From: a virus
IMG/VR virus record: IMGVR_UViG_3300037104_000911
Span: 1-64,000 of that record
Reading direction: 5' to 3' (one strand)
Length of the DNA stretch: 64,000 nt
The position numbers and the translations under genes are program-made. The notes below the pieces were generated by a model. It was not told the origin of the DNA. It ran no database searches and saw only the letters and a program-made list of their open reading frames with translations. Each line of letters starts with the position of its first letter. The stretch's first letter is position 1. Positions 3,653-35,563 of this stretch are shown piece by piece.

Positions 3653-6600
3653 TTACGAAACAGTAATTGAACCAAAAGTTTTAGTATCTGCAGAAGGTAA
3701 ACCAATTCTAACGTAGACTTGACCTGTTCTAACGGAAGAACCAAATGTAACCTTATGAGATGTTGATGTTGAGTTTCCAACAACACAAGCTGGATCACCA
3801 TTATTAACTGGATCACCAACACCAGGATAAGCTGCATTTGCATCTATCCATCCAGTAACCCCTTCAACCTTAACATAAATTCTTAAATTACTTACAATTA
3901 CACTTGAACCAAATCCAGAAGAATTATTAAATACAATAGTTATAGAAGAAGCATTTGTTATACTTAAAGGATTAAATGTTACATAACGCCAATCAGTTCC
4001 CATTCCTGTAGAATAATCTGGACCTGCTGTAGGAAGATTATTGGTATAATTTCCTGTAGGTCTTCTATACAATCCATTGAGAAGTTGTAATTCTTCAACA
4101 TAAGTAGTCTTTAAACTTATAGTGGAATCATATGCGCTTGTATAACCCAATGCTGGAAATTGTCCAGATCCTGAAGTTTTTCTAGTAGATTCATTGCTAA
4201 CTGTATCTACTCTAATAGTGGTACTTTGAGCAATATTATAAGAAGTAGTTTTAGAATTATATCCATATAATGTAAATGCTGAAGTTTCAGAATATTTATT
4301 AGTAACAACCGTTACATTAATATCTATATCAATATTATCATCATCATTGTAAGGTGTAGCTGAAGGAGCAATATCAGGACTATTTGTAATCCCTCCAGTT
4401 GAAGTTATACTTGCAACTCTTACCTTAGCATAATGAGTATTAACAGCATTAGCTAATCTAAATTGAATTCTAATAGTTTCACCGACTGCCATTGAAACTA
4501 CACCAGATATATATCTTGTGATACCCGAACCTGATGATGCTATAGCTGAATTATTGCTAAGAGTTACAACACCAGGATCATCAACATAGAAAGATAAAGA
4601 ACTATCTCCTGTAATACTATGAGATAACATATAAGTATGTAAACCAACAGCAAGATTTACTAATGGTGTAATATTAGCAATTAGTTGTTTCCAAAATCCT
4701 TGTTTTCCTGCTTGACCCACATAAGGATCTGTATCTGCAGTAATATTTAACCAAAGGTATGCGCCTACATCACTTGCAGATGAAATAATTTTACTACCAT
4801 GTGATACTGTATCAACTTTAGCTTCTAATGTTCCATTATCTCCATCAAAGAAATTACTACAAGTTCCAACAGGTTTAAGAACATCAGTACATTTATCTTC
4901 AGTTTGAGAACCAATACTTGATCTATATGCTTGATAAGAGGATAATATCATTGATATTACTGATAAATAAGAAGGTTTAGCAGGAGCTAATTTATTAAGA
5001 ACAGAATCAATTTCAGATAGAGCTTCTTGAACATCATCATCTGTTGAGGATAAAAATACCCAACCTGTTGATGTAGTAATAATATCAGCTGGGTGACCAC
5101 TTGTTAATAAATCAGGTAGCTCAGAATGTGTATAAACACCTGCTTCTCCACTAAATCCAGAAATACCAACTCCTGAGAACCCACTTATTCCTATTCCATC
5201 TATACCTGAATATCCGCTTGCTCCTAAAGTTCCACTATAACCAGATATTCCTAGTCCATCAATACCACTATAACCGCTAAATCCAGACTCTCCACCACCT
5301 AGTCCATCAAGACCACTATATCCAGAAATACCTACTCCATCTATTCCACTGTATCCAGAAATACCTATTTCACCACTATAACCAGATATACCATCAAGAC
5401 CGCTATATCCTGAAATTCCTATTTCACCACTGTAACCTGACTCTCCACCACCTACTCCACCATAACCACTTGCTCCTGAATAACCAGATACACCATCAAG
5501 ACCGCTAGAACCAGAAGTAATTAGTAAACTCCAATAAGTTTCCCAATTAACTCCTACCCCTGGTTCATTAGTAGATGAAGGAGTATTTTCTAATATACAT
5601 ATATAGACATTACCATTATTTGTAACAATATTATTTACATGATAGGCAGGAGATGTTGTTGCTTCATACATTTCCCACTCAACAAGCATTGTATTGCCTG
5701 TATAAGCAAGATCATCAATTTTATAAAATTTATATGAAGTTGAATTAGCAAAATTTATTGTATTCCACCCAACATCAACAGATAATCCGCTAAATGGTCC
5801 TGATAGTTTTGTCCATGATCCATTTACACCATTTGTCGAATCATTTGAACCATAGAAATTTCCATCCTTTAATTGGAGTAAATCCCAACCTGCTAAACTA
5901 TATAATTTTAGTGTAGTAATTATTTTCTCATTACCCACACCAAAATCAATAGCCATATAAGTAAATTTTGAAGGCTGGTTTCCATCATCAACCAATATTC
6001 CATCATCTACATTTTGCTTTACCCCATAATAATTATTGCTATAATGAGGGTAAGAAATATTAGTAACATTTGGACTACTACTACCTGATGACCAAGATCC
6101 TAAATAAATAAGACCAATCCCACTATATCCAGAGGTTCCTATTTCACCACTATAACCGCTAAATCCAGACTCTCCACCACCTAGTCCATCAAGACCACTA
6201 TATCCAGAAATACCTATTTCACCACTAAATCCTGATGTACCTATTCCATCTATTCCGCTATAACCTGAAATACCTAATCCATCAAGACCACTATATCCTG
6301 ATGTTCCTATTCCATCTATTCCGCTATAACCACTATAACCAGATTCTCCACCACCTAATCCATCAAGACCGCTATATCCAGAAACACCTACTCCACTATA
6401 ACCAGAAGGTCCTATTTCACCACTAAATCCAGATATTCCTAATCCATCAATACCACTATATCCAGATATTCCTAATTCACCACTGAATCCAGAAATACCT
6501 ATTCCATCTATTCCGCTATAACCTGAAATACCTAATCCACTATAACCAGATATTCCACTTACTCCACTTACTCCTGATATTCCAGAATAACCAGAAGCAC

Positions 6601-11121: not shown

Positions 11122-12026
11122 TTTTTAATCTCCTTACAGATTAATTCTATGTCATTTTTTAGTTGATCTAGAGTTGGAATAATATCTTTATTTAAAGTTC
11201 CCCTATATCTTATAAATTTCCAACCCCATTCTTCAAGTTCTCTTTGTCTTTTTTCATCATATTCAAAATCTTGATGCCAATACGCTCCATCATACTCAAT
11301 TATAAGTCTAAGTGATGGAACTACAATATCTAGATTATAATTTAAAAAAGGAATATTTAAACGAGCATCTTGGTATAAACTACTAACCATTTCAAATAAT
11401 TTTTTTTGAGGTTTTGATATATTCTTAATAAAAGAGTTTAAATATGCAGCTCCACCATTTAACATCATTTGTTTATTTGCTTCTCTAGCTTTAGGAACAA
11501 TTACTTTTTGAAAATAGTCACTTCTCCAAAAACAATCTGGATTTTTCCATAGTTCTTTCATAATAAGACTTTTTTTAAGCTTATATTCTTCATTAAATGG
11601 ACCATTAGGATCTTTCCATACTTCTTTCATTTTTTCTGCTTTTCTTTTCTGAACTTTTGGTTCATTCATTATATATTTTGGATCTTTCCACTGTTTCTTT
11701 TTTGTTTCTGACATTTTATTTCTAGCTTCTTTTGAAACTATTCTATTTTTATTACTTTCTATTCTAATTTCTATAATTTCTGGATCAAGATTATAACATT
11801 TATGAGAACAATATGTAAGATATCCTTCTTTTAAATTTACATATGTTGTCATATTTTTACAACCTTCTATTTTACAAATCCCTTCATTTTCAACTTTAAT
11901 AAACTTATCGTAATAATCTTTGGTTCCAGATATAAAATGACTTTTTTTATTACATGGTTGAGCTAAGTGTTGAGCTAAAGCTCTCAAACTTTTAACTTCT
12001 TTTCCACATATTTTACATTTTTCCAT
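11118..12026 (-). CDS. Free-standing homing endonuclease, Vsr-like (EDxHD type)
   Basis: 302 aa. The N-terminus carries a zinc finger (CKICGKEVKSLRALAQHL) and a second Cys/His cluster (CKIEGC...CSHKC). The middle has repeated KKQWKDP/KEVWKDP DNA-binding segments. The C-terminal 90 residues form a Vsr-like nuclease: LDIVVPSLRLIIEYDGAYWHQ, then R..ELEEWGWKFIRYRG. Known relatives are intron-borne or free-standing phage endonucleases. It overlaps the downstream fibre gene by four bases and probably came in as a mobile gene. Confidence 0.8.
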   Translation of the reverse strand: MEKCKICGKEVKSLRALAQHLAQPCNKKSHFISGTKDYYDKFIKVENEGICKIEGCKNMTTYVNLKEGYLTYCSHKCYNLDPEIIEIRIESNKNRIVSKEARNKMSETKKKQWKDPKYIMNEPKVQKRKAEKMKEVWKDPNGPFNEEYKLKKSLIMKELWKNPDCFWRSDYFQKVIVPKAREANKQMMLNGGAAYLNSFIKNISKPQKKLFEMVSSLYQDARLNIPFLNYNLDIVVPSLRLIIEYDGAYWHQDFEYDEKRQRELEEWGWKFIRYRGTLNKDIIPTLDQLKNDIELICKEIKK

Positions 12027-12063
12027 GAGATCCTTGTCTTTCTTTGTGTATTATCTCTACTTT

Positions 12064-12093
12064 ATATTTTTAGTTTGTTCTATAATTCTGAAT
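12064..12093 (-). promoter_or_regulatory. AGAACA-type promoter-like motif
   Basis: Minus-strand TATAGAACAAACTAAAAATA followed by TAAAG lies about 45 bases upstream of the endonuclease start at 12026. Confidence 0.45.
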
Positions 12094-12118
12094 GAGTTAG
12101 AACGAAATTTTTGACGTA

Positions 12119-12152
12119 AAAAATGGGAGCATAGAGGAATATCTATGCTCCC
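12119..12152 (-). terminator. Rho-independent terminator
   Basis: An 11-bp stem (GGGAGCATAGA/TCTATGCTCCC, 12125-12152) followed on the minus strand by ATTTTTTACG. It ends the transcript of the endonuclease gene at 12201-12899 and insulates the fibre operon. Confidence 0.85.
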
Positions 12153-12200
12153 GTAAGTTTTTCAGTAATTGGGATCATTAAGTATAAAATGAATTAATAT

Positions 12201-12899
12201 TTATAATTTGTTCTTTGTTTTAGATCTAATCAGTCCATGTTTAATCAATTCAAATTTTAAATCTTCAACAGTAGGCATTTTTGAATCTATATTTATTATT
12301 TTCCAACCTTCTTGATTTAAATTATTAATTCTTACATGATTTGAAACTCCCAACATATTATTATGCCAAAAAGCATTTGGAAACTCAAGAATAACCTTAT
12401 ATTCATGTATTACAATATCTGTTATATATTTGAAATCTACTACTCCAGTTTGGGTGAGTTTTTCTATAAAAAAATTATTTCTAACATCTAGAAATTCTGA
12501 AACTAAATAGTTTAATAAAACTAATTTACTTTTTGAAATTAAATTTTTGGGATCATCATATTCTAATTTTTTTATTTGTTTAAGAGAAGAAGGAATATTT
12601 ATTTTTTTTACAAATGATAAGTCCAACTCTTCAAATTTTTTTCTATTGATAATTGGAGTTTTTTCAATTTGTGTTAAAATAGATTCTGGTTCTTCATCTG
12701 TAATAACATCTTCCTTCTTAGTAAATAGTTCTGTTTTTGAATATTTTGTTCTTACTTTTGATTCTTCACTTACTAATTTAGCATTTGGATATTTAGCTCT
12801 ATAAATTTCAATTGTCATATTATGAGCTTTTTGAAGATGTTGCATAGTTACTTTTCCAAACTCTCTTTTACATTCCATACATATTAGTTTTTCAGACAT
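12201..12899 (-). CDS. Homing endonuclease, MucR-like zinc finger plus Vsr-like nuclease
   Basis: About 232 aa from the ATG at 12897-12899, chosen because GGGTGGTGG lies just before it; a start six codons upstream (12917) is possible. The N-terminus (LICMECKREFGKVTMQHLQKAH) is a Ros/MucR-type zinc finger. The C-terminus has the EDxHD nuclease pattern (YITDIVIHEYKVILEFPNAFWH, then LNQEGWKIINID). The middle is a low-complexity linker. It is monocistronic between a divergent promoter region and a terminator, consistent with a free-standing mobile endonuclease. Confidence 0.75.
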   Translation of the reverse strand: MSEKLICMECKREFGKVTMQHLQKAHNMTIEIYRAKYPNAKLVSEESKVRTKYSKTELFTKKEDVITDEEPESILTQIEKTPIINRKKFEELDLSFVKKINIPSSLKQIKKLEYDDPKNLISKSKLVLLNYLVSEFLDVRNNFFIEKLTQTGVVDFKYITDIVIHEYKVILEFPNAFWHNNMLGVSNHVRINNLNQEGWKIINIDSKMPTVEDLKFELIKHGLIRSKTKNKL

Positions 12900-12933
12900 A
12901 ATCCACCACCCTTTCATTATTAGTTGAAAATAA

Positions 12934-12954
12934 TTTTACTATATATATTAATTA
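12934..12954 (+). promoter_or_regulatory. Plus-strand promoter-like motif TTTACTATATATATTAA
   Basis: This element recurs almost exactly at 30452, 33141 and 33430, and in weaker form at 29897 and 57415, each time just upstream of a plus-strand unit. Here it precedes the gene at 13030 and the NADAR, ligase and RtcB genes. Confidence 0.6.
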
Positions 12955-29881: not shown

Positions 29882-29896
29882 TTTAGTTATAAAAAT

Positions 29897-29915
29897 TATA
29901 ACTATATATTAATTA
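29897..29915 (+). promoter_or_regulatory. Plus-strand promoter-like motif (variant)
   Basis: TATAACTATATATTAATTA differs slightly from the element at 12934 and 30452. It lies about 33 bases before the three-way-junction RNA. Confidence 0.45.
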
Positions 29916-29947
29916 ACAGAATGAGTATTAATATATTCGTTCTCAAA

Positions 29948-30066
29948 GCCCCATACTGGAAGTCTCCTTCACAAATACTTCTTAAATTCAAAAGAAAGAT
30001 GTTTTCTTTGTAAGGAGAGCATGACCCCCATCATGTTTCTCCAGTTGGGGTGAGTCATTTTTTATC
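29948..30066 (+). ncRNA. Candidate three-way-junction RNA with terminator-like end
   Basis: P1: CCCCATACTGGA (29949-29960) pairs with TCCAGTTGGGG (30040-30050) with one bulged base. P2: TCTCCTTCACAAA (29963-29975) pairs with TTTGTAAGGAGA (30007-30018) with one bulge. P3: CATGA/TCATG (30020-30035). The 3' strand of P1 can instead pair with GACCCCC in P3 to give a stem followed by TTTTTT, an arrangement like a riboswitch expression platform. No known class is recognised. Confidence 0.55.
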
Positions 30067-30196
30067 TAACTAAAATGGGGGATAAATTAAAGACTGTTTT
30101 TTCAGAAGATTCAGAAGTTTGAAAATAGTTAAATATAATTAAGAGAAAGGTTATTTTTGTTTGTAGTTTAGTAAAATTCGAAAAGGAGGCGAATTA

Positions 30197-30406: not shown

Positions 30407-30451
30407 CAAGTTGAAATTTTCTTGTCAATTTTTTTTGTTAGTTTTAAAAAT

Positions 30452-30472
30452 TTTTACTATATATATTAATTA
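30452..30472 (+). promoter_or_regulatory. Plus-strand promoter-like motif TTTACTATATATATTAA
   Basis: An exact match to the element at 12934 and 33141, about 30 bases upstream of the large structured RNA, which it presumably drives. Confidence 0.6.
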
Positions 30473-30499
30473 CTATGAAAAGAATTTTTGTTTTATAAA

Positions 30500-31065
30500 T
30501 ATGGGTGGCGGAATTAGACGCTATGTAGATGATTGGATCTGAACTCCGCCTCTAAGAGGTCTATACCAAAAGTTCATGATTCTAACCGGATCATCACAAA
30601 GGTTACAATATTTCCGTGGAGAGGTTTCTGTAATGATAACTCGGTGAAGCGGGATGAGTGTAAAATAGGTGGAACCAGCGTCAGGTGGCTACCTTACCGT
30701 GTAGGGAAACCCTACCCCATATTTTATATAATAAACTTGATTGTAGCGGTATAGCAAGAATATACCTGCGGAAAAAGTCTCCGTCCGCGACAAATCCAGA
30801 TTCCTTAATGGGAGTTTGGTCTACGGGTATGTGGAGCTGCCTGAAATGTAAGAGATAAATAATCTGTTGTCGGTAGTGAAGAGTTGAATGTGAACAACTT
30901 TTCATTATACAGGTGGGTTATGTAATCTTAATGAATGAGCGGATCACACTCTGGGATACTTCGTGGTTATATTGAGGATCCTCAGACTCTTGAGCTACAG
31001 GAGGGAGCAAACTATAGATAGGTCAGACGGTATCGGTGAAAACCCGATCTACAATCAAGTTTTTT
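30500..31065 (+). ncRNA. Large structured non-coding RNA (about 560 nt), ROOL/GOLLD-like candidate
   Basis: This 560-base stretch is clearly richer in G+C than its flanks and lacks a credible gene. AAACTTGATTGTAG (30733-30746) pairs perfectly with CTACAATCAAGTTT (31049-31062), a 14-bp closing helix followed at once by a T-run, so the 3' end is defined. Inside and upstream are GGCGGA/TCCGCC (30507/30545), GTAGGG-AAA-CCCTAC (30701-30715), GGTATA/TATACC and ATCGG/CCGAT hairpins. A promoter motif precedes it. Size, ornate folding and phage location fit the ROOL/GOLLD kind of RNA, but I cannot confirm a named class. Confidence 0.65.
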
Positions 31066-31108
31066 AAAAAATAATAAAAAAATAAAAATAGATTAAAAGG
31101 AGAATAAA

Positions 31109-31255
31109 ATGGTTTTAACAATAGAATTTAAAAAAAATACTTTTTCATTTTTTCCATATCGGGTTAGTATCAAATCCAGTCCACTATCATTTCAGTGGTT
31201 ATGGTGGGTCTTTGATGTTAGTTTTAATGATTATAGGATTAGAGATAAAATTTAA
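31109..31255 (+). CDS. Small hypothetical protein, 48 aa
   Basis: ATG at 31109 follows AAAAGGAGAATAAA. The product MVLTIEFKKNTFSFFPYRVS...RIRDKI has aromatic-rich strands. No family recognised. It lies between two structured RNA elements. Confidence 0.5.
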   Translation: MVLTIEFKKNTFSFFPYRVSIKSSPLSFQWLWWVFDVSFNDYRIRDKI

Positions 31256-31265
31256 TTCAGATATA

Positions 31266-31338
31266 TGGGTCCGTAGATCAGAGGCAGATTAATCTGCGCA
31301 TAGTCGATCAGTTAGAGATTTATATCCTCTTGGACCCA
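31266..31338 (+). ncRNA. Candidate structured leader RNA upstream of the macrodomain gene
   Basis: TGGGTCC (31266-31272) pairs with GGACCCA (31332-31338); GAGG/CCTC and a GCAGA-TTAA-TCTGC hairpin lie inside. The 73-base span with a 7-bp outer helix recalls a tRNA but lacks proper anticodon and T arms. It ends about 22 bases before the macrodomain start codon, so a regulatory role is possible. Confidence 0.45.
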
Positions 31339-31360
31339 CTATCTTAAAAAGGAGCTAAAA

Positions 31361-34114: not shown

Positions 34115-35563
34115 TTAAGCACCAATTGTCATAGAAGCAATACCCGCTGATCTTACAAGAGCTGTAGCATATCTTGAAAGAATGGTCAAGCTGGGTGTAT
34201 ATCCTAGTGGATAAGGATGCAAAATAGCAGGAACATAAGGAGCATAGAAATAAACTGATCTAATTTCGTCTGTAGGAACATAAATTACAACCATGGTTCC
34301 CTGTAGAACTACAGAACTAGTTAGAACCTTCCATTTTCCACCAGCTACTGTTGCAGTACGATAACCAACATCACCATTAACTGAAGAGGTTCCTGTATAA
34401 GCGAAACCATTTAGATCTTCTAGAATAGCTGCATCTAGAGGATTACAGAGAATAGTATTTGCAGAGTCAATATTGGTATCTGTATAAACCTGTGCTGACA
34501 ACTGATTTAGGACAGGAATAATATTTTCATGCCAATATTTATTTCCCCATAGATATGAGGATGGAGCGGTTCTATCAAAGTTACCTTGATGGGTAGCTTT
34601 ATTTAATCTACTATTAGCTGTTAACAACGAGGTAACGATTTCTCTATCAATATCTAGAGCAATCTGTTGACCAAGTAGATTAACAATTTCAGCCTGCATG
34701 GAAACATCAAATAGAGCACGCATATCCTGCTCCATGTTAATGGTCCAATTTGACTGAATCTGACGATCTTTAGCATACAGTCTAATCTTATCAACTGTCA
34801 TGGTGATTTTTGGGTTGATTCTGTTTTCTTCAAGTGAACAAGTTACTGTATACTTAACATCTATAACTTTACCTGTAGCACTAGAAATAGAAAGAGTACC
34901 ATTCAAATAATCAACCATACCAGAAATAACATCTGAATGACCTGTAACAGTTACACCAGAACTAAAATGACCTTCAACAGCTGGAACGATAGAAACATCA
35001 GCCCATGTAGTTCCATCTGTTACTGCGATAATCTGGAAATCTCTCTCAAGATGGGCATTAGTATTATTAGTACCAATTGCTCCAAGTACATCAAAAGCTG
35101 TCTGAGGAACAGCTGCCGTTCCTGCAGTTGTGGTTCCCAAACCAGGACCACCAGAAATATCGGTGCCAATAACAGGTGCCTGATACTGAGTAGCATCATT
35201 TGCTGGAGAGAACTTAGCATTAATGAATGCTTTAACAGTTTCGGGTTTATCCATAGGGGAAACTGTAACAGCTTCTTTTGCTACGAGCTTAGGATAAAAA
35301 ACTCGGAGAATAGGCATAGTTAAGGTTTCATAAGGATTAATCTGAAACATTGAATTTTCAAGCAAACTTACTCTGGTACTTTCACATAGTACCCTAAAAA
35401 TTTCTTTATCTTTCTTTGATTCGAGACCTTCTGACAAACTTGTCATATATGTTTCAAATGCTTTATCATCCACTAAAATTGCTTTCATGTTTCCAGGTTT
35501 GGATGGGTCGATACCGGAAACTTTCTTGGTAGCCTTATAGGCCTCCATGAGTAGTTCCTTCAT
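34115..35563 (-). CDS. Major capsid protein, T4 gp23-like
   Basis: 482 aa. PILRVFYPKLVAKEAVTVSPMDKPE (about 83-107) is the signature region of gp23-type HK97-fold capsid proteins. IRLYAKDRQIQSNWTINMEQDMRA is the spine helix region, and VRSVYFYAPYVPAILHPYPLG-type text lies near the C-terminus. It follows the protease and scaffold-like genes, the T4 gene order. An N-terminal ~65-residue helical segment is probably removed by the prohead protease. No intron or intein is seen. Confidence 0.92.
   Translation of the reverse strand: MKELLMEAYKATKKVSGIDPSKPGNMKAILVDDKAFETYMTSLSEGLESKKDKEIFRVLCESTRVSLLENSMFQINPYETLTMPILRVFYPKLVAKEAVTVSPMDKPETVKAFINAKFSPANDATQYQAPVIGTDISGGPGLGTTTAGTAAVPQTAFDVLGAIGTNNTNAHLERDFQIIAVTDGTTWADVSIVPAVEGHFSSGVTVTGHSDVISGMVDYLNGTLSISSATGKVIDVKYTVTCSLEENRINPKITMTVDKIRLYAKDRQIQSNWTINMEQDMRALFDVSMQAEIVNLLGQQIALDIDREIVTSLLTANSRLNKATHQGNFDRTAPSSYLWGNKYWHENIIPVLNQLSAQVYTDTNIDSANTILCNPLDAAILEDLNGFAYTGTSSVNGDVGYRTATVAGGKWKVLTSSVVLQGTMVVIYVPTDEIRSVYFYAPYVPAILHPYPLGYTPSLTILSRYATALVRSAGIASMTIGA

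Follow-up and report, generated by a model that had tools for sequence, protein, structure and literature searches.

A phage-encoded structured RNA with a T-loop-capped, covarying core that appears to represent a family outside Rfam

The DNA analysed here (the window) comprises 64,000 nucleotides of an IMG/VR virus record of 66,817 bases, from the genome of an uncultured jumbo phage. It carries a gp23-like capsid gene at 34115-35563 on the minus strand, which is distantly related to the capsid genes of the jumbo phages phiR1-37, LPJP1 and AR9. The window also has 18 copies of CCACTATATCC and 16 of CCACTATAACC, probably repeats within a tail or structural gene. The original prediction had placed an unassigned RNA of ∼560 nucleotides in a gene-free, G+C-enriched block at 30500-31065. 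The block is indeed devoid of recognisable genes: its largest open reading frames, which overlap and occur on both strands, encode 73-74 amino acids and bear no sign of function, and the G+C content reaches 42.4% across 30501-31000 compared with 29% for the window as a whole. A tRNA-like element closed by TGGGTCC/GGACCCA adjoins the RNA at 31265-31345; ARAGORN makes no call on it, and it is possibly a degenerate tRNA or a tRNA mimic.

The plus-strand promoter motif that had been reported ahead of the block is real. Its 13-mer core, TATATATTAATTA, is found six times in the window (at 12942, 29903, 30460, 33149, 33436 and 57423), whereas a third-order Markov model predicts 0.06 occurrences. All six copies are on the plus strand and intergenic, with none inside genes. 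Four of the six can be seen to be part of a longer TTAGTTTTAWAARTTTTTACTATATATATTAATTA-like sequence, and the 13-mer is also present in the related contigs L002 and L015. Position and number suggest that the motif is a promoter of the phage's own kind. Between the RNA and 33145 the window has no further copy. Sigma-70-like sites near the block are present at chance level only, and a T4-late-like TATAAATA at 30494 was rejected as a late promoter, 20 such sequences being seen on both strands versus ∼29 expected. Directly behind the copy of the motif at 29903 lies another gene-free block that is structured (29925-30070) and forms a strong hairpin; the stretch 29890-30090 folds at −50.9 kcal/mol.

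The minimum-energy fold of the block has an energy of −178.8 kcal/mol (z −4.36), which was equalled by none of 100 shuffled sequences. The perfect 14-bp closing helix of the original prediction, AAACTTGATTGTAG pairing with CTACAATCAAGTTT, is exact on reading the sequence and also appears in this fold. The T-run at the 3′ end is likewise present, and its first three T double as the end of the P1 helix; a simple terminator scan left it unflagged because the stem encloses ∼300 nucleotides. The view of a single ∼560-nucleotide block stands as regards a structured RNA and is corrected as regards its extent and organisation, the transcript being likely ∼580-585 nucleotides long with two domains (Table 1). 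The 5′ domain is closed by AAATATGGG (30497-30505) and CCCATATTT (30716-30724) and shows a weak 28-nucleotide similarity to the corresponding domain of the relative L017. The 3′ domain (30733-31062; z −5.1) is the conserved one of the two.

Table 1. Features of the RNA locus in the window, with the basis of each assignment.
Feature	Positions	Strand	Basis or remark
Candidate phage promoter motif TTAGTTTTAAAAATTTTTACTATATATATTAATTA	about 30438..30472	+	13-mer core six times, all intergenic
Putative ncRNA transcript	30480..31066	+	promoter, fold, T-run; gene-free, G+C-enriched
5′ domain	30497..30724	+	minimum-energy fold; z −2.6
P1, 5′ strand	30733..30746	+	pairs with 31049-31062; covaries in homologues
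P2 hairpin GGTATA-GCAAGAA-TATACC	30748..30766 (30748-30753/30761-30766)	+	position conserved
P3 hairpin TGCGG..CCGCG	30767..30789 (30767-30771/30785-30789)	+	conserved; three pairs with double changes
J3, A-rich joint ACAAATCC	30790..30797	+	A-rich joint here in all members
Variable insert with further hairpins	30798..31025	+	fold; length varies among members
Putative pseudoknot 3′ strand, bases before P4	31026..31031	+	P2-loop pseudoknot supported in family
P4, T-arm-like hairpin ATCGG-UGAAAAC-CCGAU	31032..31048 (31032-31036/31044-31048)	+	continuous with P1 in all members
P1, 3′ strand	31049..31062	+	reading and minimum-energy fold
T-run, possible transcript end	31060..31065	+	sequence
First gene after the RNA, an ORF of 48 aa with a Shine-Dalgarno sequence	31109..31255	+	

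Searches by sequence alone yielded no homologue, whether by blastn against phages or by blastn and nhmmer run on the capsid-related loci and on complete contigs, nor did a protein-neighbour search with a macro-domain protein. Related contigs do not conserve the genes that surround the window copy, so synteny was unusable for finding further copies. Reading of the gene-free blocks in the 23 contigs whose capsid gene is related gave one candidate, L017. This contig and the 3′ end of the window RNA have TATCGGTGAAAANCCGRTC in common, and in both genomes the RNA is antisense to the capsid gene and located to the same side of it. A copy was not detectable in the other 22 contigs, many of which are fragments; strongly folding gaps in L018, L004, L002, L008 and L014 were explained by ORFs, terminators or repeats and are not relatives. 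Past the capsid gene on the minus strand, L002 carries ∼15 alternating AGTGAACCA and AAGAAACCC motifs with variable spacers of 8-9 nucleotides (11540-12100), and L008 carries an extended tract of short repeats resembling AGCGAAGC (11500-12900).

A scan of IMG/VR with TATCGGTGAAAANCCGRTC and looser forms, a motif of 17-19 nucleotides covering P4 only, identified L067, L143, L248, L244 and L282, together with L225 and L266, which are nearly identical to each other. The DNA upstream of the matches carried the rest of the architecture, which was absent from the query. L143, L248, L244 and L282 were picked among intergenic matches partly by a pairing closing helix, and L266 partly by P1 pairing. 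The IMG/VR contigs L064/L017, L067, L143 and L248 are clear relatives and L244 is a likely one; L282 and L266/L225 are weaker, probable relatives. Matches inside genes were taken as chance, as were those of the same scan in 84,980 bacterial and archaeal genomes, which fell in genes or lacked the context. Matches in L119 and L142 lie within tRNA arrays and lack the core, those in L281 are tRNA-like sequences, a model match in G002 is a tRNA, and L207 was discarded on reading its sequence. Patterns for P2/P3 and for the 5′ domain recovered no further member. In the rejected L281 contig, two phage tRNA-like sequences lie in tandem on the minus strand (around 5536-5678), and their T-loop is UGAAAAU instead of UUCRANN. 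In L067, several more structured, G+C-rich intergenic stretches lie between small ORFs at 800-2430, two of which precede copies of one leader-like sequence, GATGGTGNGAGGAAAGAAAG.

The window copy has the marks of the family: P1, a P2 separated from it by a single base, and a P3 beginning with TGCG. In every member including the window, P4 consists of a 5-bp stem and a 7-nucleotide loop UGAAAAN (a T-loop motif) and joins P1 without a linker. The sequence of P1 differs between relatives, being AAGGCAGTG in L017, GCTGGCAG in L067, TAGCGAG in L143, AGAATAGGAATG in L248 and GTGATG in L244, and in all five its complement directly follows P4. P2 begins with GGT and is paired in all six aligned sequences, with double changes at three pairs; P3 begins with TGCG in five of the six and in members often reads TGCG..CGCA. 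P1 spans 6-14 bp among members and the core about 85-330 nucleotides, with few conserved bases outside P4, and the variable insert, ∼230 nucleotides in the window, is shorter in relatives. Some members are small, at about 112-174 nucleotides.

The P2 loop is complementary to the bases just before P4, as GGGTG/CACCU in L017, GGGG/CCCU in L067 and L244, GCAAC/GUUGC in L143 and, shifted by one, AGGAAC/GUUCCU in L282. This pseudoknot pairing is good in L017, L067, L143 and L244, and three pairs form in L248. The pseudoknot is putative in the window copy, in which two of the five pairs form.

The core alignment (A2) contains six sequences, hand-trimmed to the core and fitted to the structure. Over its 28 pairs, pseudoknot included, 94% of cells are paired and 17 pairs are changed on both sides. 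The covariation score is 0.71, compared with 0.26 after shuffling and 0.06-0.13 with the strands slid. Because the trimming by hand followed the structure, all these figures lean towards it. P1, P2, P3 and the pseudoknot all covary, double changes being found in six of seven P1 pairs and four of five pseudoknot pairs. Hairpins of 5 bp with a 7-nucleotide loop were also collected from the fetched DNA, 12,812 in all. The context of P1, P2 and TGCG accompanies the loop UGAAAAN at five distinct loci (window, L064, L067, L143 and L248), and any other loop at only two. The fold of the L067 relative has a z of −5.0. Neither of the two refuting outcomes named in the original prediction was observed: homologues exist and do covary, and a protein-coding frame through the block is not conserved.

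A covariance model built from A2 scored L067 at 52.7 bits, L244 at 43.8, L143 at 34.7, L282 at 33.7, L266/L225 at 31.3, the window at 28.7, L248 at 22.4 and L017/L064 at 19.7. The model copes poorly with long inserts, and its alignments of L143 and the window are out of register over part of the core, so these scores are no fair test of L143, the window, L017/L064 and L248. The tRNA-like sequence of L281 with the same T-loop reached 25.9 bits, and the P4 hairpin alone scores ∼16.

No Rfam model matched the window at gathering, and at E ≤ 10 only chance matches to unrelated small RNAs were obtained; ROOL, GOLLD, OLE and HEARO, the classes named for comparison in the original prediction, were not among them. 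L017 and L067 likewise have no Rfam match at gathering and, at E ≤ 10, chance matches only, with neither ROOL nor GOLLD among them, and the other members, at E ≤ 1, gave only neighbouring tRNAs, an abiF RNA and a tmRNA-like stretch. The tmRNA-like sequence in L143 (3448-3546; RF00023, 26 bits, E 4e-7, below gathering) is ∼100 nucleotides long, begins with GGGCGTGATGGGTTTCGATTGGG, seemingly lacks a tag ORF and adjoins a tRNA-Arg. An abiF RNA (RF03085; 38.1 bits, just over gathering) is located at 2965-3000 of L319, where the L266 phage has a tRNA island. A self-splicing intron, a ribozyme or another known catalytic RNA, or else a spacer structured by chance, is the least probable of the explanations weighed. 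The complex fold would suit it, but Rfam is silent, the RNA lies between genes and not within one, and covariation across phages speaks against chance.

A large structured RNA behind its own promoter is supported by the fold, the promoter motif and the covarying homologues. A sigma-70-like promoter (TTGACA-17-TAAAAT) likewise lies ∼70 nucleotides upstream of the L143 copy. Since distant relatives in at least four other phages retain the fold, tRNA-like end and pseudoknot included, despite their differing sequences, the RNA family is real. The best explanation of the block is a structured non-coding RNA that the phage encodes and that belongs to a family outside Rfam, most likely free-standing and acting in trans during infection (probability about 0.5). 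Transcription from the phage-specific promoter would produce an RNA of two domains. Comparison across the family shows that P1 of the 3′ domain encloses the junction at which P2, P3 and P4 meet, that the P2 loop pairs in a pseudoknot with the nucleotides immediately preceding P4, and that P4 with its UGAAA T-loop runs unbroken into P1, like a T-arm into the acceptor stem of a tRNA. The T-loop may accept a base from another part of the RNA and so lock the fold, with the A-rich joint as the obvious candidate donor. Pseudoknot and T-loop together could give a compact, nuclease-resistant RNA that would fill a niche like that of ROOL and GOLLD, and the P1/P4 stack may present a tRNA-like surface to a tRNA-binding partner (a processing enzyme, the ribosome or a tRNA-directed defence nuclease). 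The T-loop that the two tRNA-like sequences of L281 have in common with the family agrees with this reading. Counting against it are the two-pair pseudoknot of the window copy, the missing CCA end, a P1 of 6-14 bp where tRNA has 7, the Shine-Dalgarno sequence and small ORF found within 20-70 nucleotides after several members, and the lack of a detectable copy in 22 of the 23 capsid-related contigs.

Alternatively, and as the chief competing explanation, the RNA may be a cis-acting leader, riboswitch-like or an attenuator, of the downstream small ORF and operon, in which P1 followed by the T-run would act as the switching helix. A variable P1 around a conserved core is usual in riboswitches, as are T-loops (PMC3764141). 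The order of promoter, RNA, Shine-Dalgarno sequence and small ORF is found in the window and in L143; a start codon with a Shine-Dalgarno sequence follows P1 by 19-68 nucleotides in five of eight members, and the stretch up to 33145, free of further promoter motifs, also agrees with a leader. However, the varying core length and the scarcity of conserved bases beyond P4 do not favour this, the L282 RNA is followed by a tRNA-like sequence and not an ORF, and phage genomes are dense, so that a downstream gene is expected anyway. The genes downstream are moreover not homologous between members and have no common function. A free-standing RNA is for this reason preferred, a leader being rather less likely.

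Large structured phage RNAs such as ROOL and GOLLD are abundant yet unexplained. The free-standing RNA proposed here, known from sequence in a few members that are all metagenomic, occurs in phages with no other detected relationship. The core motif as defined allows others to search for the family, its small members suit structure determination and genetics, and the tRNA-like P1/P4 end provides a concrete, testable link to tRNA biology.

ROOL forms an octameric nanocage. Like the RNA family described here, ROOL (RF03087) is large, phage-borne and structured, lies in a gene-free stretch, has pseudoknots and is often near tRNA genes (PMC12286853); its sequence and fold differ, and the present family has a shorter core with a wider spread of lengths. 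The ROOL model scored 130 bits, at gathering, on the RNA of the L. salivarius megaplasmid pMP118 (location from PMC5643018), on which the A2 model reached at most 5.9 bits. GOLLD (RF02032) is similarly phage-borne, with a conserved 3′ region, a variable 5′ region and tRNA islands nearby (PMC12286853), but its model of 416 positions, for which the control lacked a match, is silent in the window and three family contigs. The suggestion that the RNA is a divergent ROOL or GOLLD, which had been raised by its size and phage location and to which the tRNA neighbourhood of several members and the 3′/5′ division would lend weight, is hence very improbable. The evidence favours the other option of the original prediction, a new class: a family separate from ROOL with its own defined core, the distinction from GOLLD depending on a model that has no positive control.

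Phage ICP1 and Staphylococcus phage K express abundant long non-coding RNAs from gene-free gaps (PMC7567579, PMC9241854). The present RNA is alike in its setting, whereas the A2 model has no match in those RNAs. Cobalamin riboswitches have T-loop hairpins that resemble the UGAAA T-loop. UGAAA is also the sequence of the T-loops L2 and L5 of the FMN riboswitch, which take up a base from elsewhere in the RNA (PMC3764141). The likeness to both riboswitches ends at this hairpin; their remaining fold and conserved bases are absent here, and neither is matched in Rfam searches.

There is an architectural parallel to tRNA and the tRNA-like domain of tmRNA, in which a T-arm of 5 bp with a 7-nucleotide loop is continuous with the closing helix. 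ARAGORN and Rfam make no tRNA call at the block and no call of a tmRNA, with its tRNA-like domain and tag ORF. The block does not fit a tRNA cloverleaf of 7-bp acceptor, anticodon loop and CCA or discriminator end, the 14-bp P1 of the window being followed by the T-run; with no CCA and a P1 that is not 7 bp, the RNA does not belong among the tRNAs. A narrower form of the preferred explanation is a tRNA decoy, whose P1/P4 stack would titrate tRNA-cleaving host defences or tRNA-processing enzymes. T-arm geometry in every member and tRNA genes or tRNA-like elements close to the RNA in L143, L282, L266 and L017 are consistent with it. Nevertheless, a decoy appears improbable, as P3 has no conserved anticodon-like loop, CCA is missing, the T-loop is UGAAAAN and not UUCRANN, and proximity to tRNAs is common in phages. 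The trans-acting RNA may, more tentatively, be an overgrown tRNA-like cloverleaf with large inserts and an extra 5′ domain, possibly serving as a scaffold or tRNA mimic. Differences from tRNA include a P1 of variable length, P2 and P3 without a linker and a long insert at the variable-loop position. The order of P1, P2, P3, insert and P4 nonetheless parallels that of acceptor, D-arm, anticodon arm, variable loop and T-arm, and the P2 loop, at the place of the D-arm, pairs with the variable-loop position.
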